Shown one piece after another: positions 26,454 through 42,592 of a stretch of 59,963 nucleotides of DNA. Position 1 is the stretch's first letter. Each line of letters starts with the position of its first letter. The stretch covers positions 1 through 59,963 of the forward strand of contig VGES01000002.1 of assembly GCA_016869765.1 (NCBI GenBank), read 5' to 3'. The position numbers and the translations under genes were made by a program. The notes under the pieces are model-generated. The model did no database searches and was not told where the DNA came from. It was given only the letters and a program-made list of their open reading frames with translations. This DNA comes from Alphaproteobacteria bacterium. Its GTDB lineage: Bacteria > Pseudomonadota > Alphaproteobacteria > SHVP01.

Positions 26454-27704
26454 CTAGCGTGCCTCCTGGCTCGGCTTGACGTCGTCGACCCGCGAATAGA
26501 TCAGGACGGATATCAACAGGATGAGAGCCGTCATGGCGAACATGGCCCGATACGCATCGACCGGCGGGGGACCACCCACCGGTGTGAATGCATCGATCAC
26601 GACTCCGCTCAACCATTGAAACGCGGCCGCTCCGAGGAAGACCGACATGTTGTTGGTCGTCATCCCTCGGCCAACGAGATGCGCGGGGAAGATCGCACGA
26701 CCGTGCGTCGTGATCATGGTGGAGTAACTGGTGAACGCGCCGAGCAGTGTGAAAAGGACGACCACCTGCCACACGCTCGGCGACGGCAATGCCGCCAAGA
26801 TCACCATCGTCGCCATCGAGGCGATGCTGCCGAACACGATCAACCCTTTGCGCGTGTCGAACACCCGGTCGAGCCGTCCATAGGCGAGGTGCCCGATGAT
26901 CATCCCGACGGTCATCACGAGTAGGACGTTGCCGCTTTGCACCGGCGTCAGGCCGTGGATACCGGTCAGGTAGGGCGCGCCCCACAGGCCGGCGATCGTC
27001 AGGGCGCTCGGGTAGGCCACCGCGTTGGCCGCTACGATATACGGCAGGCGCCGATTGCGCAGGACCTCCTTGAGACCGCGAAACGCATCCCCCCAAGTCT
27101 CGCGCTGTCGCCCATGATACGCGTGCCCCGGCGGCGCATCGCGCACCACGATGTAGGCCATCAGCAGGCCAGCGAGCGTGATGACAGCCATCAGAGCGAA
27201 AGCGCCGCGCCAGCCGAACAGCGCCGAAGCCGTTGCCAGGGGCGTCGTCGCCAGCACCGCCCCGACCGTACCGGTGGCGACGAACACCGACGTGACCGCG
27301 GCAAACCGATCGCCCGGGAACCAGCGTGACGCGACGACCAAGGATCCCATAAGCACGCCACCCGTTCCGATCCCCATCAACGCACGGCCGATCGTGAGGC
27401 CGATCGCACTCGACGCGGCGTAGAACACCGCCGCCCCGGCAACCGCCAACAGCATGGTGAGGGGCACCGTGATCCGCGGACCCCAGCGATCGAGCAACAC
27501 CCCGATCGGCAACTGCGCGGCCGCGAACCCGAAGAAAAAGGCGCTGTTCAAAGCCCCCATTGCCTCGGCCGACAACGCAAGCTCTCGCATCAGGTCGGGC
27601 GCGATCACACCAGTCGAAACTCGGTAGAAATGGCCGATGATGTAACAAAAGCCAAGCGCGGCCACGAGCGGCCCCGCCGCGCGGAACGTCGACGCGGTGG
27701 TCAT
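26454..27704 (-). CDS. MFS transporter
   Basis: 416 residues with about twelve membrane segments. The loop between segments 2 and 3 carries GVLLDRWGPRITVP, the MFS motif A, and segment 4-5 has GRALMGIGTGGVLMGSLVVASRWFPGDR in pieces. The middle loop (RQRETWGDAFRGLKEVLRNRRLP) separates the two halves. It resembles the anion/aromatic acid type of the family. It is the last gene of the long reverse-strand catabolic run, 15 bases after the FAD-linked oxidase, so it probably imports the substrate or exports a product of that pathway. Confidence 0.9.
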   Translation of the reverse strand: MTTASTFRAAGPLVAALGFCYIIGHFYRVSTGVIAPDLMRELALSAEAMGALNSAFFFGFAAAQLPIGVLLDRWGPRITVPLTMLLAVAGAAVFYAASSAIGLTIGRALMGIGTGGVLMGSLVVASRWFPGDRFAAVTSVFVATGTVGAVLATTPLATASALFGWRGAFALMAVITLAGLLMAYIVVRDAPPGHAYHGRQRETWGDAFRGLKEVLRNRRLPYIVAANAVAYPSALTIAGLWGAPYLTGIHGLTPVQSGNVLLVMTVGMIIGHLAYGRLDRVFDTRKGLIVFGSIASMATMVILAALPSPSVWQVVVLFTLLGAFTSYSTMITTHGRAIFPAHLVGRGMTTNNMSVFLGAAAFQWLSGVVIDAFTPVGGPPPVDAYRAMFAMTALILLISVLIYSRVDDVKPSQEAR

Positions 27705-27719
27705 CGTTCGATCGCCAGA

Positions 27720-29318
27720 CTAGGAGCGCAAGAGGCCGAGGGAACCGGGATTCAGCATGCCGGCCGGATCGACATGGCGCTTGATCGCCTCAAGCAACCG
27801 GTAGGTCTCGGGATCGCGTCCCTCACGATAGAGGTAGGACTTGCCAATCTGGAAATGGGCACATCCCAGCTCCATGAACAGCTTGGCCAGACCCCGACGC
27901 ATTTCGTCGACCGCACGCGTCGCCGCCTCGTTCTTGGGAAACACCTTGAGCTTCGCCAAGTACGCCGGGTCGAGCTGGCGGTCGTGATAGAGATGGCGCT
28001 CGTCTTCCCAGAAGAACACGGGCTCGACCAGGAACGTCTGATACGAGACGGTGGCCAGAAGATAGCCCCATTCGATGCGATGGCGGTCGAGGGTGTCCTG
28101 CTGACGGTCGAAGAAGTCGTGAACCGCCTTGAGCAACGCCGGCCCGCGCGAGTGCGGCACCATCGCGTGAATCGGGATCCAACGTTGACCCTCGGGACCC
28201 AGCATGCTGTTGGGCGCCACGAACGGCGTCGCCCGCATGATCTTGGGAAGCGACGCCTCGATCTCGCGCCCCTCGCGCCCGGCAATGGCCTTCACGGCCG
28301 CCATTGCGCTCTGCGCCGTCGCCTCGTCGCGGCCATCGACGACGATGTGCATCGAATAGTCGACGCCTTCGAACATCCGACGGCCGTGAAACGCCACCTT
28401 GGCGGCTTCCTTGACGCCGTCGAGCATGGAACGTCCGGATCGGGCGACGCTGGCCAAGCGCTGAAAATCCTTGAGCAAGCCCTCACGCTTCAGCCGTTGC
28501 CCCTGCAAGTACGGGTCGAAACCAAAACACTCGCTCGCCAGGCCCTGACGCGAAATTTCGCTCATCGCGTTGGCGATCTGGTCGTAGGTCTCATAGGCGA
28601 ACGACGCGAACAGCGACACGGCCGGATACGGAATCAGGCGCAGCGTCGCCCGCACCTTGAACCCTAGGGCCCCGGTATCGGCAAGGAAAATGCCGGTCAA
28701 GTCCGGGCCGTAGGTGCGGAAAAACGGCGATGGGTTGTAGGGCGTCGCGGCCGATCCGGTCTTGATGACCCGCCCATCGGCCAACACCACCTCGAGACCG
28801 AGACAGCTTTCGACCGCCGTGCCGTGCAAGCCCGACCCGAAGAAGATCGAGTTCTGCGACAGAGCGCCGCCCACGACCGAGCGCAGCCCCGACAGCGGGC
28901 CAAAATAGGGCGTGCGCACGCCCTTGGCTTTCAGCGCGGTGTAGAGCGACTCCCACGTCGCCCCGCACTCGACGGTGACGTACATGTCCTCGGTGTTGAT
29001 CTCGATGATACGATCGAGACGACGCATGTCGACGACGATCGAGTTCCGACGTACCGGCAAATAGCCGTCCGTGTAGGACAGCCCGCCGCCTCGCGGAATG
29101 ACCACGTACCCTGCCGCCGTCGCCGTCCGCACCGACTCCGACAGCTCGTCCCTTGACCCGGGTTGCAGCACACATTCGACCAGGTGATCGGCCGGGCGAT
29201 AGACGTCGCTCGAGAAGAACCGCCGGTCCTCGGGACCATCGAGGACATGGTCGTTGCCGACGATCTGGCGAAGCCGTTCGACGATCGATGGTGCGTGGCG
29301 TGTCGCCGCGTCGGTCAT
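27720..29318 (-). CDS. FAD-linked oxidase (GlcD/vanillyl-alcohol oxidase superfamily)
   Basis: 532 residues. The FAD-binding PCMH domain spans about 1-225, with VIPRGGGLSYTDGYLP, YVTVECGATWESLY, TPYFGPLSGLRSVVGGALSQNS and GIFLADTGALGFKVRATLRL. The rest is a cap domain with the C-terminal VDPAGMLNPGSLGLL, typical of D-2-hydroxyacid dehydrogenases and 4-cresol/vanillyl-alcohol-type oxidases. It would oxidise a hydroxy acid or a phenolic side chain. The gene lies between the fused alpha/beta hydrolase gene (124 bases upstream) and the MFS gene (15 bases downstream). The substrate is not readable. Confidence 0.88.
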   Translation of the reverse strand: MTDAATRHAPSIVERLRQIVGNDHVLDGPEDRRFFSSDVYRPADHLVECVLQPGSRDELSESVRTATAAGYVVIPRGGGLSYTDGYLPVRRNSIVVDMRRLDRIIEINTEDMYVTVECGATWESLYTALKAKGVRTPYFGPLSGLRSVVGGALSQNSIFFGSGLHGTAVESCLGLEVVLADGRVIKTGSAATPYNPSPFFRTYGPDLTGIFLADTGALGFKVRATLRLIPYPAVSLFASFAYETYDQIANAMSEISRQGLASECFGFDPYLQGQRLKREGLLKDFQRLASVARSGRSMLDGVKEAAKVAFHGRRMFEGVDYSMHIVVDGRDEATAQSAMAAVKAIAGREGREIEASLPKIMRATPFVAPNSMLGPEGQRWIPIHAMVPHSRGPALLKAVHDFFDRQQDTLDRHRIEWGYLLATVSYQTFLVEPVFFWEDERHLYHDRQLDPAYLAKLKVFPKNEAATRAVDEMRRGLAKLFMELGCAHFQIGKSYLYREGRDPETYRLLEAIKRHVDPAGMLNPGSLGLLRS

Positions 29319-29442
29319 GAAGAACCCCTATCGCAGGTGAGAGCGGAATGATTGCACGCGTCCCCGCGCCTCACAAGTTGGCGGCGACGGCCGCTTTCGC
29401 GGCCTGGCGACGACTTGCGATCGGGCGGTCTGCCCGCGAAAC

Positions 29443-31155
29443 TCAGCCTCGCAACAGTCGAAGCAGCCGGGCGGGTGTGGGGGCCGAGGATACGATCCGG
29501 GCTCGCGGGTTGATCTTGACGATCCCACGCCAACGGTCGGTCATGGGCGAGGTCGGCTCACCGAGGACGACGAACGCCCGCGTCAGACCTCGGAGATCGG
29601 GTTCGGGCCGGTAGCGGACCGCGGCTTGGAATGCTTCGCCATAGCTGCGATAGGCCTTCAACACCTCGAGCAACCGAGCTTGGAGTTCCTCCGGTCGCAG
29701 GGTCAGGTCGACGCGCCGGATGGCCATCCGCGTTCGGCGATACCACGGCCAATAGGCATGTTGGTCTCGCAGCATCAGCCACGTGCGATAAAGATGGCCG
29801 CCATCCCACGTCGGTTCGATCGGCGGCGTGTAGGCGTGGGTGAACTCGCGCCGTTCCTCCTTCGTCCACCGTGGCAGGTCCTCGAGCACGAGGCCCGCGA
29901 CCCGTTCGCCATGGCGCGCAGTCAGCCGCAACGCGATCGCCGCGCCCACGCCGACACCATAGACATCGACGATCGGCCAGCCGCCGTGGTCGAGCACGTC
30001 GCGGACCGCGCCAACGTAGACATCGAGCGATCGGCGCCCGGCCCGCAACGGATCGGAGTCCCCGCAGCCCGGGAAATCCGGGGCAACCACCGGCCGCCGT
30101 TGACCCAAGCCATTGATCAACGGCGCAAGGGCTTGGGAGGATCCAGGGACATCGTGGAGCAGCAGAATGGGACGCCCGGACCGAACCATGAGGCGCCTGA
30201 CCAACACCTGGCCCCGGGGCCGACGGTCGACGAACGTCCGGGTCACACGACGCGGAATATCTCGGGGTTCGTGGTCCGGTGGCGAATCGCCCGAGGCATA
30301 GCCGCGCAGGGCCTTCACCAAGGTCCGACGATAGACGTCCATATCGCGGCCGAGCTTCTTGATCCGTTGGCCGGCCGCGAGGCGCGGCAGCATGTCGAGG
30401 CAGTGAAAGAGCATGCTGTCCGCGCGCGCCATGAACAGTGCCGGAACGCGCAATGTCTCGACGGCCGCCTTGGCGGGATAACGAAACGCCGCCTCGACCA
30501 CCGTCCTCAGGTTGTCGCCGGCCCGGAAGTTGTCGAGCACCCCCTCGTGCATCGTGCTCGGCGAGGGCATGTCGATGTCACGACGGTTGGCGCCGCGACG
30601 GCGATACCAAGGGAACCAGAAAATATGGTCGCGAACGTGCGACCACGTTGTGGTGAGGTGCGCGCCATCCCAGGTCGCACGAAACGGCATGAGGTAATAG
30701 GCGTCGTCACCGTCATCCGATTTGGCCACGTGGGTGATATCGGCCACTTCCCGCGGCGTGAATAGAGGCAGGCTGTCGAGCACCACGCCGAGGACGCGCT
30801 CGGGAAAACGGCAAGCCAGTTCGAGGGCGATGCAAGCCCCGGTCTTGGTCCCGAACAACGCGAAACGGCCGATCCCCAGAGCATCCAGCGTCTCGACCAG
30901 CGCGGCGGCAAATTCGCCAATCCGGGGACGGCGTTGTAGCAAGGGATCGGAATCGCCGCAGCCCGGCGTATCGAAGGCGAAAACGGTTGCATGGGGTGCC
31001 AACAGCCTCATCAGGGGCACGAGGCCCGCCGAGGACTGCGGCGACTGATGCACCAGCACGACCGGTGGGCCGCTGCCCGTGCGGCGATAGTGGACCGCGC
31101 GATCGCCGACGTGGACGTAGCGACGCCGGATCACGTCGCCACCCGGCGCCGCCAT
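29443..31155 (-). CDS. Fused double alpha/beta-hydrolase-fold protein, both nucleophiles absent
   Basis: 570 residues in two homologous halves. Half 1 (about 10-285) has VLVHQSPQSSAGL, FDTPGCGDSDPL and elbow GTKTG (102-106), so the Ser position is Lys104. Half 2 (about 315-570) has LLLHDVPGSSQAL, DFPGCGDSDPL and elbow GVGVG (400-404), so the Ser position is Gly402. Both halves share WDGxHL...TW...RD...WPWYRR in the cap. The single-domain gene at 2416-3261 belongs to the same clade. Neither half shows a clear catalytic His. The ATG abuts the methyltransferase TAG with no gap (TAGATG). Binding, scaffold or unusual catalysis are all possible. Confidence 0.88.
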   Translation of the reverse strand: MAAPGGDVIRRRYVHVGDRAVHYRRTGSGPPVVLVHQSPQSSAGLVPLMRLLAPHATVFAFDTPGCGDSDPLLQRRPRIGEFAAALVETLDALGIGRFALFGTKTGACIALELACRFPERVLGVVLDSLPLFTPREVADITHVAKSDDGDDAYYLMPFRATWDGAHLTTTWSHVRDHIFWFPWYRRRGANRRDIDMPSPSTMHEGVLDNFRAGDNLRTVVEAAFRYPAKAAVETLRVPALFMARADSMLFHCLDMLPRLAAGQRIKKLGRDMDVYRRTLVKALRGYASGDSPPDHEPRDIPRRVTRTFVDRRPRGQVLVRRLMVRSGRPILLLHDVPGSSQALAPLINGLGQRRPVVAPDFPGCGDSDPLRAGRRSLDVYVGAVRDVLDHGGWPIVDVYGVGVGAAIALRLTARHGERVAGLVLEDLPRWTKEERREFTHAYTPPIEPTWDGGHLYRTWLMLRDQHAYWPWYRRTRMAIRRVDLTLRPEELQARLLEVLKAYRSYGEAFQAAVRYRPEPDLRGLTRAFVVLGEPTSPMTDRWRGIVKINPRARIVSSAPTPARLLRLLRG

Positions 31156-32286
31156 CTACTTCTGAGCCGCGATCGTCACCCAGCCTCCTCCGCTCGATGC
31201 GGCGATGTAGCCCCCCTTCGCCCTGCTGGCCGCGGTGACGCGGATTCCCTTGGCCGAAAATCCGGCCCCGGTCATGACAGCCTTCGGATCGAGCGAACGC
31301 ATCTGCGCCCAGCACGGTTCGTTGTTGGCATACGTGTCCCAGTCGGCGTCGAAAGCCTCGTACGGCGTCATCCCGGCAAACAACGTGATGTCCTGGTGCA
31401 CGCAGACCCCACCAGGGGCCAGCAGTCGATGACACTCCTTCATGATGCGTGTGACCGCCTTGCGCGAAACCTCATGCAGGAAAATATGGGACACGATCAA
31501 ATCGAAGTGACCGTCCGGGTAATCGGTCGCCTCGGCGTTGGCCTGGCGAAAATGAATCGCGGCGCCGAGGGCTTCGGCCCGGGCATGGGCGTAACGCAAC
31601 AGCGGTGCGGAGACGTCGATGGCATGGACCTCGGCATCCGGAAACGCCCGACAATAGGGTAGCGTCGAGGTGCCGACCGTGCATCCGATGTCGAGGATCC
31701 GCCGCGGCTTGAGCTTGGGATAGAACTGCCGGACCACGACGCTCAGTTGCTGGCCCATGCTGTCGTTGTAGGGGCCGAGCTTGCCCCCGGTGTACCAGTG
31801 AACCCCGAAATCGAAGATCGCGCCGGCGGCGACGTCGTCCTCGGTCCGCTCCGTGGCGTAGCCTCCGGGCATGCAATGCACGTCGGCCGCAGCAATGTAG
31901 CGCGGCGGCACCACCCGGGAATCGAGCGTCAAGGTTCCCTTCTTCCGCCCACGGCCGACGCGGGCCCGATCGATCAGGACCGGCAGATCGCGTTCGACCG
32001 GGTCGACAGCGGCATCCCACAACATCTCTTGGCTGGTGCGCTGCAGGGCCGCCCAGGTCTGGTAGACGGGTTCGGCCAACATGAGCTTGCGAACCTCATG
32101 CCGGTCGCGCGGCGGACGTTTGTTGGCCCGCCGAAATCTTGGCGCCGCCAATCGTTCGTAGGCGAGTTGGTTGCCAGGACGAAGATCGCGGGTGAGGTGC
32201 CCCTTGAGATCTCGCACGAACTCGCAGCGCGCCAACTCGTCGTGATCGGCGTGCGGCATCATTGTGTGTTCGAACGGTCCAGCCAT
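31156..32286 (-). CDS. SAM-dependent methyltransferase with long conserved N-terminal region
   Basis: 376 residues. Class I methyltransferase motif I is DIGCTVGTS (199-207), then VHAIDVSAPLLRYAHARAEALG (motif II/acidic residue), QANAEATDYPDGHFDLIVSH and LHEVS. Ahead of it are about 190 residues that are not part of the methyltransferase fold, with DRHEVRKLM and YQTWAALQRTSQEM (about 61-87) and IAAADVHCMPGGY. A clear paralogue with the same layout is encoded at 54352-55515. The gene is packed between the GFA-fold gene (18 bases) and the fused hydrolase (0 bases). The methyl acceptor is unknown. Confidence 0.88.
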   Translation of the reverse strand: MAGPFEHTMMPHADHDELARCEFVRDLKGHLTRDLRPGNQLAYERLAAPRFRRANKRPPRDRHEVRKLMLAEPVYQTWAALQRTSQEMLWDAAVDPVERDLPVLIDRARVGRGRKKGTLTLDSRVVPPRYIAAADVHCMPGGYATERTEDDVAAGAIFDFGVHWYTGGKLGPYNDSMGQQLSVVVRQFYPKLKPRRILDIGCTVGTSTLPYCRAFPDAEVHAIDVSAPLLRYAHARAEALGAAIHFRQANAEATDYPDGHFDLIVSHIFLHEVSRKAVTRIMKECHRLLAPGGVCVHQDITLFAGMTPYEAFDADWDTYANNEPCWAQMRSLDPKAVMTGAGFSAKGIRVTAASRAKGGYIAASSGGGWVTIAAQK

Positions 32287-32304
32287 ATCGTCCCTCGCTT
32301 CGAT

Positions 32305-32733
32305 TTATGGTAGCGGCGGACCCTCGGCCGCGGTGGTCGCAAACTTGAGCCCGTCGCCCAGGTGAACCCACGGCAGTTTGTCCCGCACGTAAACGTGCGC
32401 CCGCGGCACCAGCGTCGCGGGATCATCGAACGTCCCGACCAGGATATGCACCTCGTCCTTCCAGCGGTCGCTGACGAAAGTCAGGGACGTACCGCACCGG
32501 GCGCAAAACGTGCGGAATGTGCGCGGCGACGATTCGTGGACGGTCGGCGCTGCACCGAGCCACGAAAATCGCTCCGATCGAAAGCCAGTCCAGGTCGAGA
32601 ACGCCGCGCCGGTCGAACGCCGGCAGTCATTGCAATGACAATGGGCCACCCATTTGGGCTTGCCCGTCGTTCGAAAACGATGCGCGCCGCAGCGGCATCC
32701 CCCCTCGCGAACCGTGTCGTCCGCGGCATCCAT
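32305..32733 (-). CDS. GFA/CENP-V-fold zinc protein (S-hydroxymethylglutathione-adduct type)
   Basis: 142 residues from the ATG at 32733, one base after the AMP-ligase stop; a GTG 30 bases upstream inside the ligase gene is less likely. The zinc cysteines are GGCRCGAHRF, HCHCNDCRRSTGAAF and FCARCGTSL, the standard GFA-domain ligand set. Gfa-type proteins bind glutathione adducts, but most members have no known substrate. The motif order and length match the family. It is embedded in the catabolic run, so it may act on a thiol or aldehyde intermediate. Confidence 0.9.
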   Translation of the reverse strand: MDAADDTVREGGCRCGAHRFRTTGKPKWVAHCHCNDCRRSTGAAFSTWTGFRSERFSWLGAAPTVHESSPRTFRTFCARCGTSLTFVSDRWKDEVHILVGTFDDPATLVPRAHVYVRDKLPWVHLGDGLKFATTAAEGPPLP

Positions 32734-32734
32734 C

Positions 32735-34303
32735 TCAGAGTTTGCCCACTTTGGCGCGATCACGAAGTTCGCGCTTGAGGATCTTGCCTGCCGCGTTGCG
32801 CGGCAACGCGTCGATAAAAATGAATTCCTTCGGCACTTTGAACTTGGCGAGTTGCTCTTTGCAGTAGTTTTCCAGGCCGTCGGCGGCGATGGTCTCTCCA
32901 GGCCGCCGCACGACGACCGCCTTCACCGCTTCGCCCCACTCCGGATCGGGAACGCCGATGACGGCCACTTCGGCAACGGCCGGGTGGTGCTGCAGAATTT
33001 CTTCGATCTCGCGCGGGAAGACGTTGACCCCGCCGGTGATCACCATGTCCTTCTTGCGATCGACGATATAGAGGTAACCCTCCTCGTCGAGTTTGCCCAT
33101 GTCGCCGACCGTAAGCCAGCCCTCGGCGGTATAGGCCTCGGCAGTGGCCTTCTCGTTCCGCCAATAAGCATTGAAACCGAGGGGCGAACGCGTGAACAAC
33201 TCGCCCACCTCGTTCGGGCCGGCCGCTTGGCCATCCTCGCGCAGAATCTTGATTTCGACCCCCGGGTACGGGAGCCCGACGCACTGTTCCTTGCGGAGCT
33301 GATCCTGGGGCCGCAGGTTCGTGCACAGGCCGCCCTCGGTGGACCCGTAGGTCTCGTGCAGCAACCCCCCGCCGAAGTGCCCGACGATCTGCTCCTTGGT
33401 CGCCTGCAGCAGGGGCGCCGCGTTCGAGATCATCGTCTTGAGGCTCTTGGTCGAGTACCTGGACAGCGCCTTGGGGCCGAGAGCGAAGATGCGGTGGAAA
33501 TAGGTCGGCACGAAGAAGCAATTCGTGAGCTTCATCTCATCGATCTTGCGCAGCAGCAACTCGGGATCGAAGCGCGGGAGAATTTCGCAGAAGCCACCGA
33601 AGAAGATCGGGGCCATGGCGAACACGTAGCCGGCGCCGTGGTAGAGCGGCGCGGTGGCGAGCGCGCGGTCATCGGGCGAATAGCAGCCGAATTCCGATCC
33701 CATGGTGTAGAACGCCAGGACGCGCGAGCGGTGCGACAGGAGGCAGCCCTTCGGATTGCCCGTCGTGCCCGAGGTGTAGGGAATGCAGAAGACGTCCCAC
33801 TCCTCGAGCGGCGTCGTCGGCATGATCGGCTTGGCCCGCATCAGCCAGTCTTCGTAGTCCTTGCCGATGACGATGATGCGTTCGACGGTCGCGAACTTGA
33901 TCGACCGCGCCTTCTCTTCCTGGCTTTCGTGAACGAACAGGACCTTGGCTTGGGAGTCGTTGCAGATGTACTCGGCCTCGCGCGCCGTCACCCCTGGCGG
34001 CACCATGGCCGGAGCGGCGCCGATCGAGGACAGTCCCGCCACGATCTCCAGGAACTCCATGATGTTGGGCGCCCACAGCGCAGCGTGGTCGCCTTTCTTC
34101 AGGCGCAGATCGTGCAGCGCCCCCGTCGAAACCCGGTCGAAGCGATCGACGATCTGGGCGTAGGTGAACTTGCGATTTTCCTGCGCCAACGCAACTTTGT
34201 TGGGCGTGCGTGCCTTGGCCGTGCGGACCCCGTCCGCAATCAGCATCGAACGGTAGCTGGGTGGACGGCCGGGGAGCGGCAGCGTCGGCCGTTCAAACGA
34301 CAT
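32735..34303 (-). CDS. Class I acyl/aryl-CoA ligase (AMP-forming)
   Basis: 522 residues. The adenylate-forming motifs are complete: YTSGTTGNPKGCLLSHRS (P-loop), the YGSTEGG aromatic/substrate motif, GWLTVGDMGKLDEEGYLYIVDRKKDMV in pieces (A7-A8) and LPRNAAGKILKRELR with the catalytic lysine (A10). It activates a carboxylic acid to its CoA thioester. Ligases of this length include fatty-acid and aryl-acid enzymes; the substrate cannot be read. It begins 11 bases inside the end of the upstream cysteine hydrolase gene and its stop sits one base from the GFA gene, so it is in the same operon. Confidence 0.92.
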   Translation of the reverse strand: MSFERPTLPLPGRPPSYRSMLIADGVRTAKARTPNKVALAQENRKFTYAQIVDRFDRVSTGALHDLRLKKGDHAALWAPNIMEFLEIVAGLSSIGAAPAMVPPGVTAREAEYICNDSQAKVLFVHESQEEKARSIKFATVERIIVIGKDYEDWLMRAKPIMPTTPLEEWDVFCIPYTSGTTGNPKGCLLSHRSRVLAFYTMGSEFGCYSPDDRALATAPLYHGAGYVFAMAPIFFGGFCEILPRFDPELLLRKIDEMKLTNCFFVPTYFHRIFALGPKALSRYSTKSLKTMISNAAPLLQATKEQIVGHFGGGLLHETYGSTEGGLCTNLRPQDQLRKEQCVGLPYPGVEIKILREDGQAAGPNEVGELFTRSPLGFNAYWRNEKATAEAYTAEGWLTVGDMGKLDEEGYLYIVDRKKDMVITGGVNVFPREIEEILQHHPAVAEVAVIGVPDPEWGEAVKAVVVRRPGETIAADGLENYCKEQLAKFKVPKEFIFIDALPRNAAGKILKRELRDRAKVGKL

Positions 34304-34928
34304 TGCTGAGTTCCACCTTCCAGGAATCGAGCACTTCGCTCACCGTCATCAACTGCGCGAAGAAATTGCCCATGGTCTTGAGCGAAATCTGGTAGCGGTC
34401 ATCCTCGACCTCGGCGATGGCATCCGAGACGACATAGGTGCGAAAGTCCCGTTGACTCGCGTCGCGTACCGTCGTTTCGACGCACATGTTGGCGGTCACC
34501 CCGCAGACAACGAGGTTCTCGACCTGCATCGCTCGCAGGATGGCGTCGAGCTGGGTCGAGTAGAACGCGCTCGGGCGATTCTTTTCGATCACGGTCTCGT
34601 CGGCGTAGGGCTTGAAACCCTCGGCCAGGTCCGCGTCCCAAGTGCCCTTGGCGCAGAGCCTCACGTCCTTCAGGCCCGGCATGATCTCGTTGACGATGAC
34701 GCCGCCATCCTTGAAGTCGGATTGGTAGACGTATTGGGTGAAAATCACGGGCACCCCGGCCTTGCGAGCCCCTGCGATCAACCGCAGCGAGCCGGGGATC
34801 GCCTCGCGCAGGCGCTGATAGGGAAAACCGAGCTTCGCCATCGCGCCCTGCGGCTCGAGGAAGCTGTTTTGCATGTCGACGACGAGAAGCGCCGCATCTT
34901 TGCGCACGAGCGGGGCGAGTGAGGCCAT
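34293..34928 (-). CDS. Isochorismatase-like cysteine hydrolase (copy 2)
   Basis: 211 residues from the ATG at 34928. The catalytic triad of the isochorismatase-like fold is intact: Asp18 in VVDMQNSF, Lys116 in IEKNRPSAF, Cys149 in GVTANMCVETT. Members hydrolyse amides such as ureidoacrylate, N-carbamoyl acids or nicotinamide. It is closely related to the protein encoded just upstream (34939-35568); both share QRDxRTxVVxDA and GTWDAxxA. The next gene, the CoA ligase, overlaps its end by 11 bases. An acid released here would be a fitting ligase substrate. Confidence 0.92.
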   Translation of the reverse strand: MASLAPLVRKDAALLVVDMQNSFLEPQGAMAKLGFPYQRLREAIPGSLRLIAGARKAGVPVIFTQYVYQSDFKDGGVIVNEIMPGLKDVRLCAKGTWDADLAEGFKPYADETVIEKNRPSAFYSTQLDAILRAMQVENLVVCGVTANMCVETTVRDASQRDFRTYVVSDAIAEVEDDRYQISLKTMGNFFAQLMTVSEVLDSWKVELSNVV

Positions 34929-34938
34929 AGGATCCTCC

Positions 34939-35568
34939 CTAGGCGGCTGATTTTGCCGGAACGCCCCAGGCCGCGAGGACCTCATCGACCGTCATAACTC
35001 GGGCGAACAGGTATTCCATGGCCTTGAGCGCCACGTCGTGACGGAACGCCTCGACCTCGCCGACCGCGTCGCGGACGACGAACGTACGGTAGTCGCGCTG
35101 CGACGCATCGCGCACGGTGGTCTCGACACAGATATTCGTGGTCACGCCGCAGACCACGAGATTGAGGATGCGCTGGGCCCGCAGGTAGGACTCCAGTCGG
35201 GTGGCGTAGAACGAACTCGGGCGGTTCTTGTCGATCACGACTTCGCCGGCGAGCGGTGCGACCTCGGGGGCGATCTCGGCGTCCCAGGTACCGGCGGCAC
35301 ACAGGCCGACATCACGCAGCATCGGGCTCTGCTCGCGCACGCGGATGCCGCCATCGCGATAGTCGGTCTCGTACACGTAGCGGGTATGAAAGATCGGCAA
35401 CTGCGCCGCCCGAGCGCCGGCGAGAAGGCGCGCGACCCCCGGAGTCGCGGCCGCGAGGCGGGCCCAGTCCCGCCCCAGGCGCGCGATCGAGCCCTTGGGC
35501 GAGAGGAACCCGTTCTGCATGTCGACCACCAGGAGCGCGGTACGGTCGCGCCCCAATGCCATCACCAT
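34939..35568 (-). CDS. Isochorismatase-like cysteine hydrolase (copy 1)
   Basis: 209 residues. The triad is intact: Asp16 in VVDMQNGF, Lys114 in IDKNRPSSF, Cys147 in GVTTNICVETT. It is a tandem paralogue of the next gene, separated by 10 bases, and matches it in motif spacing. Two intact copies suggest either a hetero-oligomer or two related amide substrates. It follows the amidohydrolase gene by 24 bases. The RYVYETDYRDGGIRV loop with Tyr residues is similar in both copies and probably shapes the pocket. Confidence 0.92.
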   Translation of the reverse strand: MVMALGRDRTALLVVDMQNGFLSPKGSIARLGRDWARLAAATPGVARLLAGARAAQLPIFHTRYVYETDYRDGGIRVREQSPMLRDVGLCAAGTWDAEIAPEVAPLAGEVVIDKNRPSSFYATRLESYLRAQRILNLVVCGVTTNICVETTVRDASQRDYRTFVVRDAVGEVEAFRHDVALKAMEYLFARVMTVDEVLAAWGVPAKSAA

Positions 35569-35592
35569 GGTTCCCCTCCCCTGGTCACGCGT

Positions 35593-36492
35593 TTAGCGCT
35601 TGCGGCGCTTGGTCAGACGCTTGTTATACATCGAGCTGCCCGGGATCGCGAAGATGCCGAGCGCGTTGTCGCGCATGATCTTGCGATAGGAGTCCGGCCG
35701 GAAGTTGAGGTCCTCGACTTCCTTGACCGCGCGGATCGGATCGATCACCGGCCAGTCGGTGCCGAACAGGAACTTGTGCGAGCCGTAGGTGTTGGCGTAG
35801 TGCACCATCTGCTTGGGCCAGTGCTTGGGGGCATAAGCATCGCCGCCGATGTAGATGTGCTCGTGTTTCCAGGCCATCGAGATCATCTCGTCGGTCCAGG
35901 GAACGCCCAGGTGGATGCCGAGGAGGCGCAGCTCGGGATAGAGAATGGCGACGCGATCGAGTGTGATCGGCTTGGCCACGGACGGCAGTCGGCGTGAGCG
36001 CGAATAGATCAAATTGTGCCCGACCTGCATCATGATCGAAACGTTGAGCTCGATGCACTTGGCATAGATCGGAAACACGTACGGGTGATCGGGCGGCAGG
36101 TCGAACCAGTGCGGGTAGTAGTGCGCGCCGACGAAGCCGAGTTCCTTGACCGCAAATTCGAGTTCCCGGAGCTGCTGCATGCCGAGCGTCGGGTCGACGC
36201 CGGCCAAGCCGGAGAACCGATCCGGGTATTTCTTGCAGATCTGAGCAACCCGCTCGTAGGGGATGTGGAACGACCCTTGGACGCGCATGTCGCCGCAGCG
36301 GGCGGCGATCAACAGTGAGTGCTCGATCCCAGCTTCGTCCATCATCTTCAGGTACTCCGGAATGGTGGTGCCGCGGCGCATGCGCGGCTCCATGCGCACC
36401 TGCTTCTTGAAATGATCGTCGATGCCGGTCTGGCCCAACTTGACTTCGAGCGGCGTGTAGAGATTACAGACGATATCGATGATCCCGACCAC
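35593..36492 (-). CDS. Amidohydrolase (metal-dependent hydrolase of the amidohydrolase_2/ACMSD type)
   Basis: 299 residues from a GTG at 36492, which has GAGGAAA 6 bases upstream; the frame remains open above but lacks a better site. The fold is that of ACMSD-type decarboxylases and hydrolases: MDEAGIEHSLLIAA, FSGLAGVDPTLGM, GFVGAHYYPHWFD, LRLLGIHLGVPW and KFLFGTDWPV. The usual N-terminal HxH pair is replaced by CNLYT, as in a branch of this family with altered metal sites, while His in IHLG and Asp in GTDW are kept. It leads the nine-gene reverse-strand catabolic run and starts divergently from the UbiD-type gene. Decarboxylase or hydrolase activity cannot be told apart here. Confidence 0.9.
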   Translation of the reverse strand: MVGIIDIVCNLYTPLEVKLGQTGIDDHFKKQVRMEPRMRRGTTIPEYLKMMDEAGIEHSLLIAARCGDMRVQGSFHIPYERVAQICKKYPDRFSGLAGVDPTLGMQQLRELEFAVKELGFVGAHYYPHWFDLPPDHPYVFPIYAKCIELNVSIMMQVGHNLIYSRSRRLPSVAKPITLDRVAILYPELRLLGIHLGVPWTDEMISMAWKHEHIYIGGDAYAPKHWPKQMVHYANTYGSHKFLFGTDWPVIDPIRAVKEVEDLNFRPDSYRKIMRDNALGIFAIPGSSMYNKRLTKRRKR

Positions 36493-36586
36493 GGAAATTT
36501 CCTCTTGGTTGTTGGCTTGGGCGGCAGGCGCCGGTAGAGGGGGCGAATCTATCGGCTGACCCGCCGCGAGGCAACGGAGCCGGCGG

Positions 36587-36614
36587 TTGCCCGGGCGGCC
36601 GCATGTGCGACAAT
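36587..36614 (+). promoter_or_regulatory. Possible sigma-70-like promoter for the UbiD operon
   Basis: TTGCCC (36587-36592) and GACAAT (36609-36614) are separated by 16 bases and lie about 45 bases before the ubiD-type ATG. The match is only moderate, and GC-rich regions yield such pairs by chance. The 166-base region (36493-36658) must hold promoters for both divergent gene sets, so it is the place to look for a shared regulator site. Confidence 0.28.
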
Positions 36615-36658
36615 GCGCAGCACACGACGTTTCGCAACACACACTTGTCCGGACCGCG

Positions 36659-38071
36659 ATGCCCGACCTCCGCCAGTTCCTAACCGAAGCCAAGGGCCAG
36701 ACGCTGCGGCCGGAGCGGCCTTTGTCCGTCGTCCAGGAAATCACGGCACTGCAGCAGGAACTCGATGCCCGCGGTGCCTACCCGGTGATCTACGTCGAGC
36801 AGGCGAAACTGCCGGATGGCGGCGCGGCCAGCATGCCGATCGTCTGCAACTTGACCGCGAGCCGCGAACTGACCGCGCGAGCGCTGGGGGTTGCCGATCA
36901 CCGGGACTTTGCCGCGGCCTACGCGACGCGCACGGCCAAAGCAATCCCTCCCGTGGTCGTCACGCGTCACGACGCGCCCGTGCAGGAGATCGTCGAACAG
37001 GGTGACCGAGCCAGCCTCTTCGCGCTTCCCGTTCTTACCCAACACGTGATGGACCCGGGGCCCTATCTGACGGCGGCGCACGCCACCACCTACGACCCCG
37101 ACACGGGGATCGACAACACGGCGATCCAACGCTGCTGGGTCAAGGGCCCGCGGCGGATGTCCTACTACCCCTACCCCGCCTCGCACAACACGCGGAACGT
37201 GCGGAAATTCTGGGCCCGGGGCGAGCCGTGTCCGGTCGTGTTCTGGATCGGCCACCACCCGACCGTGCTCATGGGCTCGCAGGCCAAGCTGAAGTATCCC
37301 GAAAGCCACTGGGCCGCGGCCGGCGGCCTGCTCGGAGAACCGATCCGCCTGGTCCCCTCGGTCACCTTCGGCGAACTGCTGGTCCCGGCCGACGCCGAGA
37401 TCGTCATCGAGGGTTACGCGCCGGCCAACCGCTGGGAGCCGGACGGCCCCTTCGGCGAGTACACCGGCTACATGGGACCGCAGGTCGCCGCACCGATGTG
37501 CGAGATCACCTGCATCACGCGGCGGCGCAACGCGATCTATCACGACTACGGCTCGGGCCACGCCGACATGCTGGTCCCCGACAACATGGTGATGGAGGGC
37601 AAGGTCTACGGCATGGTGCGACCGGTGGCGCCTTCGTTGCAGCGCATCCATGTGCCAGTCTCGGGCCGCCGTTTCCACGGCTACATGCAGTTCAAGAACC
37701 CGGCGATCGGCGAGGCCCGTGATGCGCTGACCACCGCGCTCGGCTATCGCCGCTTGAAGGCCGTGTTCGCGGTCGACGACGACATCGACGTCTTCTCCGA
37801 TGCCGAGATGATGTGGGCCCTGGCGACCCGCGTGCAATGGGACCGCGATGCGATCGTCGTGAGCGGCCTTTCGGGTTCGCTGATGGACCCCTCGTTGCCG
37901 CGCGGTGCGCGCACGGTGCAGAAGATCGGCATCGACGCAACCCTCGCCCCCGCCGAGGTGCCGGGCGCCCCTCGTCCCGTCCCGCCACGCAACCGCGTCT
38001 CGGACGCGGCGCTTGCGACGGCACGCGAACTTCTTGCCCAGTCCGACGGCGCGGGATGGCCCAACCTATGA
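36659..38071 (+). CDS. UbiD-family decarboxylase (prFMN-dependent)
   Basis: 470 residues from the ATG at 36659. UbiD features are clear: the central strand region QRCWVKGPRRMSYYPYPASHN, WAAAGGLLGEPIRLVP, and the acid motif DGPFGEYTGYMG (262-273). The two acidic residues of the ExxxxE/D catalytic pair are Asp262 and Glu267. It decarboxylates, or carboxylates, an aromatic or unsaturated acid using prenylated FMN. No ubiX flavin prenyltransferase is in the window. Its stop overlaps the zinc-ribbon mini-protein start (ATGA). Divergence from the ubiquinone-type UbiD and the context argue for a catabolic role. Confidence 0.92.
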   Translation: MPDLRQFLTEAKGQTLRPERPLSVVQEITALQQELDARGAYPVIYVEQAKLPDGGAASMPIVCNLTASRELTARALGVADHRDFAAAYATRTAKAIPPVVVTRHDAPVQEIVEQGDRASLFALPVLTQHVMDPGPYLTAAHATTYDPDTGIDNTAIQRCWVKGPRRMSYYPYPASHNTRNVRKFWARGEPCPVVFWIGHHPTVLMGSQAKLKYPESHWAAAGGLLGEPIRLVPSVTFGELLVPADAEIVIEGYAPANRWEPDGPFGEYTGYMGPQVAAPMCEITCITRRRNAIYHDYGSGHADMLVPDNMVMEGKVYGMVRPVAPSLQRIHVPVSGRRFHGYMQFKNPAIGEARDALTTALGYRRLKAVFAVDDDIDVFSDAEMMWALATRVQWDRDAIVVSGLSGSLMDPSLPRGARTVQKIGIDATLAPAEVPGAPRPVPPRNRVSDAALATARELLAQSDGAGWPNL

Positions 38072-38274
38072 CCACCGGCAATCGCACACCGCTCCGCCCT
38101 CACACCGCCCCCGGCGAAAAACGCGGCAACACGACCTGGGTGTCCTGCCCATCGTGCAAGGAGTGGTTCCACACCACCGAAGACCTGATTGCGCGCGGCA
38201 CCATCGCGCTGCATTGCCCCCATTGCCACCACGAGTTCCTGCCCGAAAAGTCCCCGCGCCTGATCGTAGCCTGA
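38068..38274 (+). CDS. 68-residue zinc-ribbon protein coupled to UbiD
   Basis: The ATG overlaps the UbiD stop by 4 bases (ATGA), so it is translated with it. Two CxxC knuckles (SCPSC near 27-31 and HCPHCHHEF near 50-58) make a zinc ribbon; the rest is polar with no membrane segment. In several hydroxybenzoate decarboxylases the UbiD-type C subunit comes with a small D subunit of 60-80 residues that also carries paired CxxC motifs (BsdD/YclD type). This protein may be the equivalent, although it is not obviously homologous over its full length. It lies 2 bases before the next gene. Confidence 0.85.
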   Translation: MTTGNRTPLRPHTAPGEKRGNTTWVSCPSCKEWFHTTEDLIARGTIALHCPHCHHEFLPEKSPRLIVA

Positions 38275-38276
38275 CC

Positions 38277-39047
38277 ATGCGGCGCTTTCTCGTTCTCGTG
38301 CTGCTGCCACAGGAACCCTCGGTCATCGAACGGCGCGCCCGGCAGCGACACCTCGTTCCTGACCATTGGGGGATCGAACTCCACTACCGCGGCGTGCAAG
38401 CGGCCCCCGCCACGAACCTGTGCCCGGCCGATTTCGCCCTGGCGGAGATCGCGCTGTTCGAAGCCGGATTCACCGCCCAGGAAGAAGGGTTCGACGCGGT
38501 GCTGGTCGACTCGATGAGCGACACTGCGGTCGATGCCCTGCGTTCGGTCCTCGATATCCCGGTCGTGGGACCTGGCCGCGCCGCGTTCCTGACCGCGCTC
38601 ATGCTGGGCGAACGCGTCTCCGTGCTCGCCATGTGGTCCCATTGGGCGGTGCTCTATACGCGAACCCTCGGCGCAATGGGCCTCCTGTCCCGCCTCGCCT
38701 CGGTGCGTTCGATCGAGGAAGCGCCCGACACCCGCCACCTGCTCGCCGGCAAGGAGGCCGAGATCTTCCCCAAACTGCTCGAGGCCGGCCGGCTGGCGAT
38801 CGAAGAGGACGGCGCCGACGTGATCTGCCTGGGTTCGACGACGCTCTACCAAGCGCACGCCTACCTGGCGGAGAGACTGCCCGTCCCGGTCATCAACCCC
38901 GCGCCTCTCTCCTACCTGGTGGCAGACATCATGTTCGCGTTGTCGCTGCGTCCGAGCCGCCGGGCGCACCCCAAGCCGCTGCTGGATCAGCAGGCCATGG
39001 TCCGTGCGATGATGACGGCGGCGGCCCGCCAAGAAGGAACACGCTAG
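38277..39047 (+). CDS. Asp/Glu/hydantoin racemase-fold protein, both catalytic cysteines replaced (copy A)
   Basis: 256 residues. The two-domain racemase fold is recognisable from FEAGFTAQEEGFDAVLVDSMSD, LDIPVVGPGRAAF and ICLGSTTLYQAHAYL. In true racemases the first segment carries the first catalytic Cys; here it is Ser79 (DSMSD). The second Cys, normally in xLGCxxM, is Ser187 (LGSTT). Thus neither acid/base cysteine is present. The sequence aligns without gaps with copy B over the first ~190 residues. It is the third gene of the UbiD operon. It may catalyse something other than racemisation or be a binding protein. Confidence 0.88.
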   Translation: MRRFLVLVLLPQEPSVIERRARQRHLVPDHWGIELHYRGVQAAPATNLCPADFALAEIALFEAGFTAQEEGFDAVLVDSMSDTAVDALRSVLDIPVVGPGRAAFLTALMLGERVSVLAMWSHWAVLYTRTLGAMGLLSRLASVRSIEEAPDTRHLLAGKEAEIFPKLLEAGRLAIEEDGADVICLGSTTLYQAHAYLAERLPVPVINPAPLSYLVADIMFALSLRPSRRAHPKPLLDQQAMVRAMMTAAARQEGTR

Positions 39048-39836
39048 ATGCCCAAGATCCTCGTCCTCGTCCCGTTTCCGATGGCGGCCGACCAGCTCGC
39101 GCTGCGCCAGGCCCAGAGCAAGGCCGTGCCGCTCGAACCCGGCACGACGCTGCACTACCGGCCGGTGAAGGCGGCGCCACGCACCTACGTGTCGCAGCAG
39201 GACTATGTGCTGGCCGACCTGTCGCTGTTCGAAGCCGGGCTCTCGGCCCAGGCCGACGGTTTCGATGCGGTCATCATCGACACGGTGAGCGATTCGGGCG
39301 TCAACGCGCTGCGCTCGATGCTCGACATTCCGGTCGTCGGGCCGGGCCGCGCCATGTTCTTGAACGCGCTCATGCTGGGTGACCGGTTCTCGATCCTCGC
39401 CATGTGGAAACACTGGTCGGGCCTCTACAAGAAGACCCTCACCGAACTCGGGCTCATGGAGCGACTCGCCTCGGTGCGCTCGATCGACATCGTGCCCGAC
39501 AACCGCAATCTCCTGGGCGGCAAGGAGGAAGACGTGTTCCCCAAACTGCTCGAAGCCGGCAAGCGCGCTATCGAAGAAGACGGAGCCGACGTGCTGCTGT
39601 TGGGTTCGACCACCATGCACCAGGCGCACGGCTATCTCGCCGAGCGCCTACCGGTGCCCGTCATCAACCCGGGGCCGCTCTCCTACAAGATGGCGGAGAC
39701 CGCGATCGCGCTCCGCCTCAGCCACAGCCGCGCCGGCTACCCCAAACCGATGGTCGAGAAATCGGCCATGGTCCGGGCGATGATGGATGGCGCCGCCGCG
39801 GCCGAACGCGGCCGACCCGTCGAGAAGCTGAGCTAG
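39048..39836 (+). CDS. Asp/Glu/hydantoin racemase-fold protein, cysteine-free (copy B)
   Basis: 262 residues, starting directly after the copy A stop (TAGATG). The positions of the two catalytic cysteines are Thr79 (DTVSD) and Ser187 (LGSTTMHQ). The whole predicted protein has no cysteine at all, so classical two-cysteine racemase chemistry is excluded. Shared blocks with copies A and C are FEAGxxA, GxDAV, SDxxxxxLRS, IPxVxPGRA, GSTT and PVINPxPL. The tail differs between copies. Confidence 0.88.
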   Translation: MPKILVLVPFPMAADQLALRQAQSKAVPLEPGTTLHYRPVKAAPRTYVSQQDYVLADLSLFEAGLSAQADGFDAVIIDTVSDSGVNALRSMLDIPVVGPGRAMFLNALMLGDRFSILAMWKHWSGLYKKTLTELGLMERLASVRSIDIVPDNRNLLGGKEEDVFPKLLEAGKRAIEEDGADVLLLGSTTMHQAHGYLAERLPVPVINPGPLSYKMAETAIALRLSHSRAGYPKPMVEKSAMVRAMMDGAAAAERGRPVEKLS

Positions 39837-39845
39837 GAGCGCACC

Positions 39846-40616
39846 TTGGCCAAGAAAAAAGCGCTGGTGATCGTCCCCTTCGCCCTCGATGCCGCGGGGG
39901 TCGCCAACCGCAAGCTCCAGACCAGGGCGGTCAAGCTCGGCCCCGACATCGAATTCGATTTCAAGCCGGTGACGGCGGGACCGACCAGTTTCATGAGCGC
40001 GCACGACTGGATGCTCATGGACCTCGCGATCTTCGAAGCCGGTCTCGAAGCGGAGAAAGACGGCTACGACGCGGTGGTGATCGATACCATGAGCGATTCC
40101 GGCATGGCGCCGCTCCGTTCGATGCTCAAGATCCCGATCGTCTCGCCCGGACGCGCCTCCATGATGTTCGCGCTATTGCTCGGCAACAAGTTCGCCGTGT
40201 TGGCACAGTGGGAACCCTCGGTGCTCAGGATCAAGAAGGCCGTGCACGAATACGGCCTGTCGAACCAGTGCGCCGCCGTCGAACACTTCGACACGCCACC
40301 CGACTTCGCCAACCTCTTGTCCGGAAAAGAAGACAAGGTGTTTCCGAAGATGAAGGCCGCGGCCGAGCGCGCCATGGCCAAGGGCGCCGAGGTGATCTGC
40401 CTCGGTTCGACCACCATGCACCAGGCGGCCGAGTACCTCGCGGGCGCGTTGCCGATCCCGGTGATCAATCCGGGGCCGCTCACCTACAAACTGGTCGAAG
40501 CATGGCTCGCCCTCAAGCTCAGCCATAGCCGGAAGGCCTACCCCGCGCCGCTCGTGCCCAAGATCGAGATGGTCCACGCCATGCTCGCCGCCGCGGCCAA
40601 AGCGGAGAAAAAGTAA
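39846..40616 (+). CDS. Asp/Glu/hydantoin racemase-fold protein, catalytic cysteines replaced (copy C)
   Basis: 256 residues from a TTG with AGGAGCGCACC upstream, which sets the start 9 bases after the copy B stop. The catalytic positions are Thr81 (DTMSD) and Ser188 (LGSTTMHQ). It is the most divergent copy (for example QWEPSVLRIKKAVHEYG in place of MWKHWSGLYKKTLTELG). Three such genes in a row suggest a hetero-oligomer or stepwise use on related substrates. It is the last gene of the forward UbiD operon; the vapC gene ends 10 bases later on the other strand. Confidence 0.88.
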   Translation: MAKKKALVIVPFALDAAGVANRKLQTRAVKLGPDIEFDFKPVTAGPTSFMSAHDWMLMDLAIFEAGLEAEKDGYDAVVIDTMSDSGMAPLRSMLKIPIVSPGRASMMFALLLGNKFAVLAQWEPSVLRIKKAVHEYGLSNQCAAVEHFDTPPDFANLLSGKEDKVFPKMKAAAERAMAKGAEVICLGSTTMHQAAEYLAGALPIPVINPGPLTYKLVEAWLALKLSHSRKAYPAPLVPKIEMVHAMLAAAAKAEKK

Positions 40617-41311: not shown

Positions 41312-41312
41312 C

Positions 41313-41346
41313 CATATGGGTGGATTGATATGGCTACCCATATATC
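41313..41346. promoter_or_regulatory. Probable VapB operator: ATATGGGTGG / TACCCATATAT inverted repeat
   Basis: CCATATGGGT (41312-41321) and ACCCATATAT (41336-41345) form an inverted repeat immediately upstream of the vapB start. Ribbon-helix-helix antitoxins often bind such repeats. The position, symmetry and unusual A/T content in a GC-rich region support this; binding is inferred. Confidence 0.45.
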
Positions 41347-41871: not shown

Positions 41872-42591
41872 ATGACCGACACCCTCATTGCCAAGGCCGA
41901 CTTCTGGAAGCGGCTGCAGGCCGCCCGCACGCCCGCGCACTCGGGCGGCCACCCATTCTCGAACGCGTGGAAAAAGGGTGAATTGACCCGCGCCCACCTC
42001 GGGTTCTGGGCGATGCAGCAGTACTACTACATCGAGGAAGTGACCCAGATGTTCGCAGCGCTGTTCATGCGCTTGCCCGACCTCGATGCGCGGCTCCACA
42101 TGCTGGAGAATCTCAACGGCGAGGAAGTGCCCGAGCGCCATCCCGATCTGTTGTTGCGCTTTGCCAACGCCTGCGGGTTCTCGACCGAGCGGGTCAAGAA
42201 CGCCTACATCGCGGGCGAGGTCCTGCCCTCGACGATGGCGATGCGGTCCTGGACTTATGAACTCGCGATGATCCGTCCGCTGTCGGATGCGGCAGCCGGG
42301 ATCATGGTCGCGCTCGAGGGCCAGACCCCGACGATCTACCCGCATTACATCGAGGCTGGGCGCAAGATGGGCTTCAGCGACCACGATCTCGCATTCTTCC
42401 ACGTTCACGTCACCGCCGACGAGGGCCACGAGGAGCACGGCCTCGAGATCTGCGCGCGCTACGCGACGACGCGGGCGCTGCAGGAGCGCGCCATCGCGAC
42501 GGTGACCGCCTCGGCCCGCATGCGCTATCGCATGCTGGACGGCGTCCACGACGCGACCCTCGGCGCCGGCCGCAAACAAGCCGCCGAATAG
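41872..42591 (+). CDS. TenA/PqqC-fold iron-containing redox enzyme-like protein
   Basis: 239 residues from the ATG at 41872 with GGAGGACC upstream. The all-helical haem-oxygenase-like fold is suggested by HPFSNAWKKGELTRAHLGFWAMQQYYYIEE, LEGQTPTIYP and HVTADEGHEEHG, all read in parts. The metal-ligand type His/Glu set includes Glu in YYYIEE and His/Glu in TADEGHEEHG. Relatives include PqqC, CADD-like p-aminobenzoate oxygenases and other di-iron oxidases. The downstream SDR gene begins 1 base after its stop, then a DOPA-dioxygenase-like gene, so a small oxidative pathway is likely. Substrate is unknown. Confidence 0.82.
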   Translation: MTDTLIAKADFWKRLQAARTPAHSGGHPFSNAWKKGELTRAHLGFWAMQQYYYIEEVTQMFAALFMRLPDLDARLHMLENLNGEEVPERHPDLLLRFANACGFSTERVKNAYIAGEVLPSTMAMRSWTYELAMIRPLSDAAAGIMVALEGQTPTIYPHYIEAGRKMGFSDHDLAFFHVHVTADEGHEEHGLEICARYATTRALQERAIATVTASARMRYRMLDGVHDATLGAGRKQAAE

Positions 42592-42592
42592 C

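Follow-up and report, generated by a model that had tools for sequence, protein, structure and literature searches.

A divergent alphaproteobacterial gene cluster that joins a UbiD decarboxylase module to an amidohydrolase module

Gene content and organization of the locus

The DNA analyzed here is a 59,963-nt stretch of contig VGES01000002.1 (assembly GCA_016869765.1, an alphaproteobacterium), referred to below as the window. It contains two gene sets transcribed away from each other, one headed by a UbiD-family decarboxylase gene and the other by an amidohydrolase gene. A first-pass annotation had described nine reverse and five forward genes at positions 26454-40616. Gene calls and Pfam scans confirmed all 14 genes, with their coordinates and families, and their divergence from a shared gap of exactly 166 bases (36493-36658). 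Within each arm, adjacent genes overlap or lie 0-24 bases apart, as had been described; the sole exception is a space of 124 bases between the genes for the FAD (flavin adenine dinucleotide) oxidase and the fused hydrolase. The features of the locus are listed below, where core and accessory refer to conservation among related genomes.

26454..27704 (-): major facilitator superfamily (MFS) transporter (Pfam MFS_1, 5e-44); accessory
27720..29318 (-): FAD_binding_4 oxidase/dehydrogenase, a relative of VAO/4-cresol dehydrogenase and D-lactate dehydrogenase; core
29443..31155 (-): fused double alpha/beta hydrolase (double Abhydrolase); accessory
31156..32286 (-): S-adenosylmethionine (SAM) methyltransferase with an N-terminal part of its own; accessory
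32305..32763 (-): GFA-family small zinc protein (Pfam GFA, 1e-25); window only
32735..34303 (-): AMP-forming acyl-coenzyme A (CoA) ligase (Pfam AMP-binding, 6e-74); core
34293..34928 (-): isochorismatase-fold amide/ureide hydrolase 2, with an intact Asp-Lys-Cys triad; core
34939..35568 (-): isochorismatase-fold amide/ureide hydrolase 1, also with an intact triad; core
35593..36492 (-): Amidohydro_2 protein lacking the HxH metal motif (the amidohydrolase); core
36546..36574 (-): candidate sigma70-like promoter for the reverse operon, TTGCCT-N17-TAGATT, from the intergenic alignment
36587..36614 (+): candidate sigma70-like promoter for the forward operon, TTGCCC-N16-GACAAT, from the intergenic alignment
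36659..38071 (+): UbiD-family decarboxylase, prenylated FMN (prFMN) type; core
38068..38274 (+): 68-amino-acid zinc ribbon, motif KRGNTxWVxCPxC...HCPxCHxEF; core
38277..39047 (+): racemase-fold protein 1 (Asp_Glu_race) without catalytic Cys; accessory
39048..39836 (+): racemase-fold protein 2 (Asp_Glu_race), both catalytic Cys replaced (Thr and Ser)
39846..40616 (+): racemase-fold protein 3 (Asp_Glu_race), likewise with Thr and Ser in place of the Cys
41872..42591 (+): heme-oxygenase-like dimetal oxygenase (CADD/PqqC relative); forward-arm core
42593..43336 (+): short-chain dehydrogenase/reductase (SDR) oxidoreductase; forward-arm core

The UbiD stop codon and the zinc ribbon start codon overlap (ATGA), and racemase-fold gene 2 begins immediately after gene 1. 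The first-pass annotation ended the forward set at 40616 because a PIN-domain gene and its small upstream partner (a VapBC-like pair at 40626-41341, on the reverse strand) intervene, and it therefore missed the dimetal oxygenase and SDR genes (41872-43336). In low-GC relatives only ~70 bases lie between the genes for racemase-fold protein 3 and the dimetal oxygenase.

Conservation within the family

The locus was examined in ten genomes of one family, the window genome and nine others in five further genera, several of them marine. UbiD is present in all ten, with 64-75% identity to the UbiD of the window. The UbiD and amidohydrolase genes lie head to head, ~135-212 bases apart, in every family genome with both flanks visible (9/9, window included; in the tenth the contig ends there). 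Since all nine testable genomes have it, this arrangement is not due to chance. It spans low- and high-GC genera whose sequences have otherwise diverged.

The shared reverse core consists of the FAD oxidase, the CoA ligase, the isochorismatase-fold hydrolase (one to three copies), and the amidohydrolase; the FAD oxidase is found in all relatives that have the reverse arm. The shared forward core runs from UbiD through the zinc ribbon and racemase-fold proteins 2 and 3 to the dimetal oxygenase-like gene and the SDR gene, and in some relatives an insertion separates the last two from racemase-fold gene 3. Five of the 14 genes first described (racemase-fold 1, GFA, methyltransferase, fused hydrolase, and MFS) are variably present at the locus. 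The MFS gene is found there in the window and three relatives (matches of 56-60% in G002, G003, and G008), and the GFA gene has no match at the locus in any relative.

In one family genome, G006, the genes for racemase-fold proteins 2 and 3, the oxygenase, and the SDR have moved to another contig (C2:26-31 kb). UbiD and the zinc ribbon still stand back to back with the amidohydrolase operon (C1:183-191 kb). This genome is more telling than co-linearity for the two sets staying together.

The two modules outside the family

A scan for the amidohydrolase in 84,980 species genomes found 80 loci, 73 of which are not the UbiD-bearing locus of the family (three of the 73 are second copies in family genomes). 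The CoA ligase gene lies directly downstream of the amidohydrolase gene in 64 of these 73 loci. Other genes of the reverse arm are less frequent: the FAD oxidase follows in 13, and the fused hydrolase, common beside the amidohydrolase elsewhere, is nearby in nine. The isochorismatase (at least 45%) and the methyltransferase occur in three loci each, and a racemase-fold gene in one. Amidohydrolase and CoA ligase are thus a widespread proteobacterial pair, present also in the cultured Flavimaribacter sediminis and Aquibium carbonis (L071 and L088). Amidohydrolases of this pair from alpha- and gammaproteobacteria, many of them marine or freshwater metagenome-assembled genomes, retain 62-83% identity, so that a common compound is the likely substrate.

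Gammaproteobacterial copies of the pair often have as neighbors a DUF4437 cupin, a DsbA-like protein, and a subunit of the type II dimethyl sulfoxide (DMSO)-reductase family (TIGR03479-like, below the cut-off). L061, L064, L069, and ~27 other gammaproteobacterial loci have the cupin, the pair, and then the DsbA-like protein and the DMSO-reductase-family subunit. Among alpha- and gammaproteobacteria, G146 and G295 included, genes for the isochorismatase, the hydrolase, the oxidase, the methyltransferase, or racemase-fold proteins are repeatedly found next to the amidohydrolase gene or grouped with one another, and the methyltransferase is a recurrent partner of racemase-fold or amidohydrolase genes. 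In G146 the fused hydrolase exists as two separate adjacent genes, in a run with the FAD oxidase, a racemase-fold gene, and the methyltransferase, and an amidohydrolase-isochorismatase-CoA ligase cluster lies ~20 kb from this run. A 222-amino-acid protein without a Pfam match is encoded between the racemase-fold and methyltransferase genes of G146 (L149, 12766-13434, reverse strand). The genome of the window has a second locus, with amidohydrolase, CoA ligase, hydrolase, and oxidase genes and without UbiD.

The UbiD clade is found once outside the family, in a genome of another, unrelated family in the class sample (G209). Its run is UbiD-zinc ribbon-dimetal oxygenase-SDR, with no adjoining amidohydrolase or racemase-fold gene. 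In the 398-genome sample of the phylum, no member of the clade was found beyond the window's own genome. As the two sets occur independently outside the family, they are two modules joined in the family and not one obligatory pathway. The first-pass annotation had proposed one pathway, with co-occurrence of the gene sets among neighborhoods as the check; this agrees with the nine testable family genomes and with G006, and it does not extend to other families, where the sets are separate.

Another association of the pair is found in Erythrobacter (L075, 5.9-18.5 kb). The locus contains a TonB receptor, a second Amidohydro_2 protein, an FeS_assembly_P protein, and the amidohydrolase-CoA ligase pair, together with an MFS transporter, an alpha/beta hydrolase, an isochorismatase, and a luciferase-like monooxygenase.

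Enzymes of the forward arm

UbiDs of the family keep the Arg and both Glu of the prFMN site, and the segments IQR, EIVIEG/EIVVEG, and PFGEY are invariant. UbiX is encoded elsewhere in the genome, on contig C25 (TIGR00421, 251 bits, above the cut-off). The best solved relative of the window's UbiD is 6H6V (7e-61, vs 5e-32 for the next protein), which is the furan-2,5-dicarboxylate decarboxylase PtHmfF (PMC8988006). It is reported that an active-site His of HmfF sets its furan specificity (PMC7976604). While the similarity to HmfF extends over nearly the whole chain and includes the Arg, the two Glu, and a genomic UbiX, this His is replaced by Met in every family UbiD (one PtHmfF fragment was aligned, and the position was found by residue counting). 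The UbiD found here also differs from HmfF in being always followed by the 68-amino-acid zinc ribbon and in its linkage to the dimetal oxygenase and SDR. The zinc ribbon adjoins every family UbiD and the UbiD of G209 as well. Its identification as a VdcD-type subunit was rejected, as there was no such match.

The dimetal oxygenase-like protein has all six candidate metal ligands (E/H/E/H/D/H) when aligned with 9PJ4, and they are kept in relatives. The identity of these ligands we take from CADD. In spite of the shared fold family and aligned ligands, the protein is below the cut-off for CADD p-aminobenzoate synthase (TIGR04305, 88.5 bits vs 200), and its gene, unlike those of CADD and PqqC, is in an operon with UbiD. 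UbiD, zinc ribbon, and dimetal oxygenase form a compact, testable unit.

The racemase-fold proteins belong to the Asp/Glu racemase superfamily, which includes allantoin and hydantoin racemases. AlphaFold models of two proteins of the locus, a racemase-fold protein and the amidohydrolase, were compared with solved structures by fold alone. The racemase-fold model (predicted local distance difference test score 92.5) matches best the allantoin racemase KpAllR (3QVJ, E 1.5e-17, template modeling scores 0.80/0.85); PDB titles among the structure matches include Cys mutants. The catalytic residues of KpAllR are Cys79 and Cys184 (PMC12661438). At the matching positions the main clade of the proteins described here has Thr (or Ser) and Ser, and Cys-bearing outgroups align correctly. 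The earlier observation that these proteins lack Cys is thus correct, and it extends to both catalytic residues. A Thr/Cys pair is known from EcL-DER, which has quasi-unidirectional activity (PMC12661438); no description of the loss of both catalytic Cys in a racemase fold was found in the literature. Another difference from the known racemases is that two paralogues lie side by side, protein 3 being paired with protein 2 across the family. Racemase-fold protein 1 is a fast-evolving, window-only duplicate of protein 2; in the tree it sits on a long branch as sister to protein 2, with modest support. Proteins 2 and 3 probably work as an isomerase, a lyase, or a decarboxylase, and not as a racemase of the two-cysteine type.

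A second racemase-fold pair (2b and 3b) is found in the same genome (L036, 12-19 kb; G000:C2, 72-79 kb) and in related genomes (L034, L035, L037, and L038). It adjoins an FAD_binding_2 flavoprotein, a tripartite ATP-independent periplasmic (TRAP) binding protein, and usually a methyltransferase paralogue. Single Cys-less racemase-fold genes are found at L031, L032, L039, and L040, beside genes that by sequence are hydantoinase A/B- and amidase-like, a context which suggests a wider role of the Cys-less clade in the breakdown of nitrogen compounds.

Enzymes of the reverse arm

The amidohydrolase reads DxVxN in place of DxHxH, with Asp and Asn in 89/89 relatives and Val in 87/89, so the HxH (or ExH) motif of PF04909 strand 1 is absent. 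His123, His127, His193, Asp217, and Asp245 are invariant. The predicted fold is a TIM barrel, closest to the uncharacterized protein 3IRS (Z 29.9) and then to gamma-resorcylate-type decarboxylases and their relatives (Z ~20-23). This fold is shared with the PF04909 decarboxylases and relatives (gamma-resorcylate and 5-carboxyvanillate decarboxylases, ACMSD, and LigJ), from which the protein differs in its DxVxN motif and its pairing with a CoA ligase. The invariant His and Asp residues, and 8FUL and 8SM6 among the fold matches, bear on a possible kinship with the amidohydrolase-related dinuclear oxygenases AibH2, PtmU3, and SfbO, whose site consists of three carboxylates and three His. Since PF04909 includes cofactor-free, mononuclear, and dinuclear oxygenase members (PMC10811679), the chemistry of the protein is not fixed by its family.

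Both isochorismatase-fold proteins have an intact Asp-Lys-Cys triad (VVDMQN, KNRPS, and CVETTVRDA). Protein 1 is nearest to biuret hydrolase and then to RutB, which are the best sequence matches and share the triad. It is, however, far under the cut-offs of both NCBIfam equivalogs (119 and 106 bits vs 370 and 378), and, unlike either enzyme, it has a tandem paralogue.

The nucleophile elbows of the fused hydrolase are GTKTG and GVGVG, without the Ser of GxSxG, and its two halves are 37.5% identical. Relatives have GRHTG, GTHTG, or GHHTG, mostly with His at the first elbow.

Hallmark residues are thus kept in UbiD, the isochorismatases, and the dimetal oxygenase, and are missing from three enzyme groups: the racemase-fold clade, the amidohydrolase, and the fused alpha/beta hydrolase. 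Given these residues, the names racemase, amidohydrolase, and hydrolase are doubtful for the Cys-less clade, the DxVxN protein, and the Ser-less double hydrolase.

Intergenic region and direction of metabolism

The promoter-like elements were picked by eye from a cross-genome alignment of the intergenic region, and each occurs once in the window. The reverse element is found near-identical and with the same spacing in G003, G006, and G008, and a similar forward element is found in G002, G003, G006, and G008. Both are kept with small changes between the window genome and three genomes of another genus. A consensus promoter scan of the intergenic region found no promoter, and no conserved palindromic operator was found there. 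Rfam searches found no riboswitch or other RNA in the window.

Importers are found next to both modules in several lineages. A dipeptide-type ATP-binding cassette (ABC) system with a solute-binding protein lies beside the second amidohydrolase locus of the window's genome, and a dipeptide-type permease and ATPase set (family read from sequence) beside the UbiD of G209. L065 has a branched-chain-type ABC system, the Erythrobacter locus has a TonB receptor, and the second racemase-fold pair has a TRAP binding protein next to it. These adjoining importers favor a catabolic direction for the locus.

Proposed function and alternative explanations

The best reading of the locus is aerobic catabolism of a small acid or amide, either unsaturated or (hetero)aromatic. 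We place the probability of a joint catabolic locus, with two modules transcribed away from the shared 166-base region, at about one half. On the reverse side, the two isochorismatase-fold hydrolases would cut an amide or ureide C-N bond, and the CoA ligase would turn the resulting acid into a CoA thioester. The metal-motif-less Amidohydro_2 protein, the flavin oxidase, and, in some lineages, the Ser-less double alpha/beta hydrolase may then process the CoA-activated acid. On the forward side, UbiD with prFMN (supplied through UbiX) and its dedicated zinc ribbon would decarboxylate an alpha,beta-unsaturated or (hetero)aromatic acid, the product would be oxidized by the dimetal oxygenase and SDR, and the Cys-less racemase-fold proteins 2 and 3 may bind an intermediate. 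Intact residues or family membership support each of the reactions suggested earlier: hydrolysis of an amide or ureide, decarboxylation with prFMN, activation as a CoA thioester, and oxidation by a flavoenzyme.

Some observations weigh against this reading. The modules are separate outside the family, so a single shared substrate is no more than possible, and racemase-fold pairs also occur at loci without UbiD or amidohydrolase, beside TRAP transporter or hydantoinase-like genes. No regulator was recognized inside the cluster, and no NCBIfam equivalog passes its cut-off for any cluster member scanned. In addition, a DsbD gene with no obvious relation to the locus lies beside the FAD oxidase gene in the same order in most relatives. 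Local gene order is therefore slow to change, and co-linearity alone is weak evidence. A less probable explanation, though a serious one, is that of two functionally independent catabolic operons that share the intergenic region by descent, their back-to-back order being frozen in the family: each module is found alone elsewhere, the second amidohydrolase locus of the same genome does without UbiD, and the DsbD gene has kept its place too. It does not account well for UbiD and the amidohydrolase remaining together in G006 while the rest of the forward arm has moved, or for an arrangement that spans genera of low and high GC content with otherwise diverged sequence.

Known pathways with some of the same parts fit the locus less well. 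In an Hmf-like pathway, UbiD would decarboxylate a furan (or pyrrole) dicarboxylate and the CoA ligase would activate the monoacid. PtHmfF is by far the best solved UbiD relative and a CoA ligase is encoded just across the intergenic region, but the substitution of Met for the specificity His, and a cluster with no gene from a molybdenum-hydroxylase family such as HmfABC, make this improbable. The nic and pic clusters for pyridine carboxylates contain Amidohydro_2, alpha/beta hydrolase, isochorismatase, and racemase-fold parts, and these superfamilies are together here, with an MFS gene as well. In such a pathway they would be a decarboxylase, a deformylase (alpha/beta hydrolase), a maleamate amidase (isochorismatase fold), and a maleate isomerase (racemase fold). 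Maleate isomerase requires two Cys. Both Cys of the NicE/PicG-type isomerase are absent here, as is the nucleophile Ser of the alpha/beta hydrolase, and the isochorismatases are nearest to biuret hydrolase and RutB. UbiD, the CoA ligase, and the dimetal oxygenase are additions relative to the nic/pic clusters, whose pathway has no place for the first two, and a route of this kind is very unlikely. Both the nic/pic and Hmf pathways were rejected on residues (racemase Cys, hydrolase Ser, and UbiD His).

A biosynthetic cluster for a small metabolite, using the decarboxylase, dimetal oxygenase, CoA ligase, methyltransferase, and an exporter-type MFS protein, has equally little likelihood. Members of the dimetal oxygenase superfamily are known chiefly from natural-product biosynthesis (PMC13108848), and the description of a caboxamycin cluster names an amidohydrolase and an AMP-dependent synthetase (PMC5481532). 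On the other hand, the modules have importers and solute-binding proteins as neighbors in several lineages, and the amidohydrolase-CoA ligase pair is kept across two classes, unlike a typical biosynthetic cluster.

Every part of the joint locus belongs to a known superfamily, and the gene set fits no described pathway found. The literature yielded no paper describing the set and no matching pathway, in agreement with the first-pass annotation, which knew of no named pathway with these genes. The interest of the locus lies in the widespread amidohydrolase-CoA ligase core and in the enzymes without hallmark residues. One may tentatively imagine an undescribed aerobic route by which marine and freshwater Proteobacteria use an abundant natural compound. 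Non-canonical chemistry would be carried out by a heteromer of two racemase-fold proteins without Cys, by the amidohydrolase that lacks its metal motif, and by the double hydrolase that lacks Ser, and it would be coupled to the UbiD/dimetal-oxygenase module.

Elsewhere in the window, at 15621-18761, a gene for a ferredoxin-like protein is directly followed by one for a large FAD flavoprotein, a pair that presumably resembles adenylylsulfate reductase AprBA.

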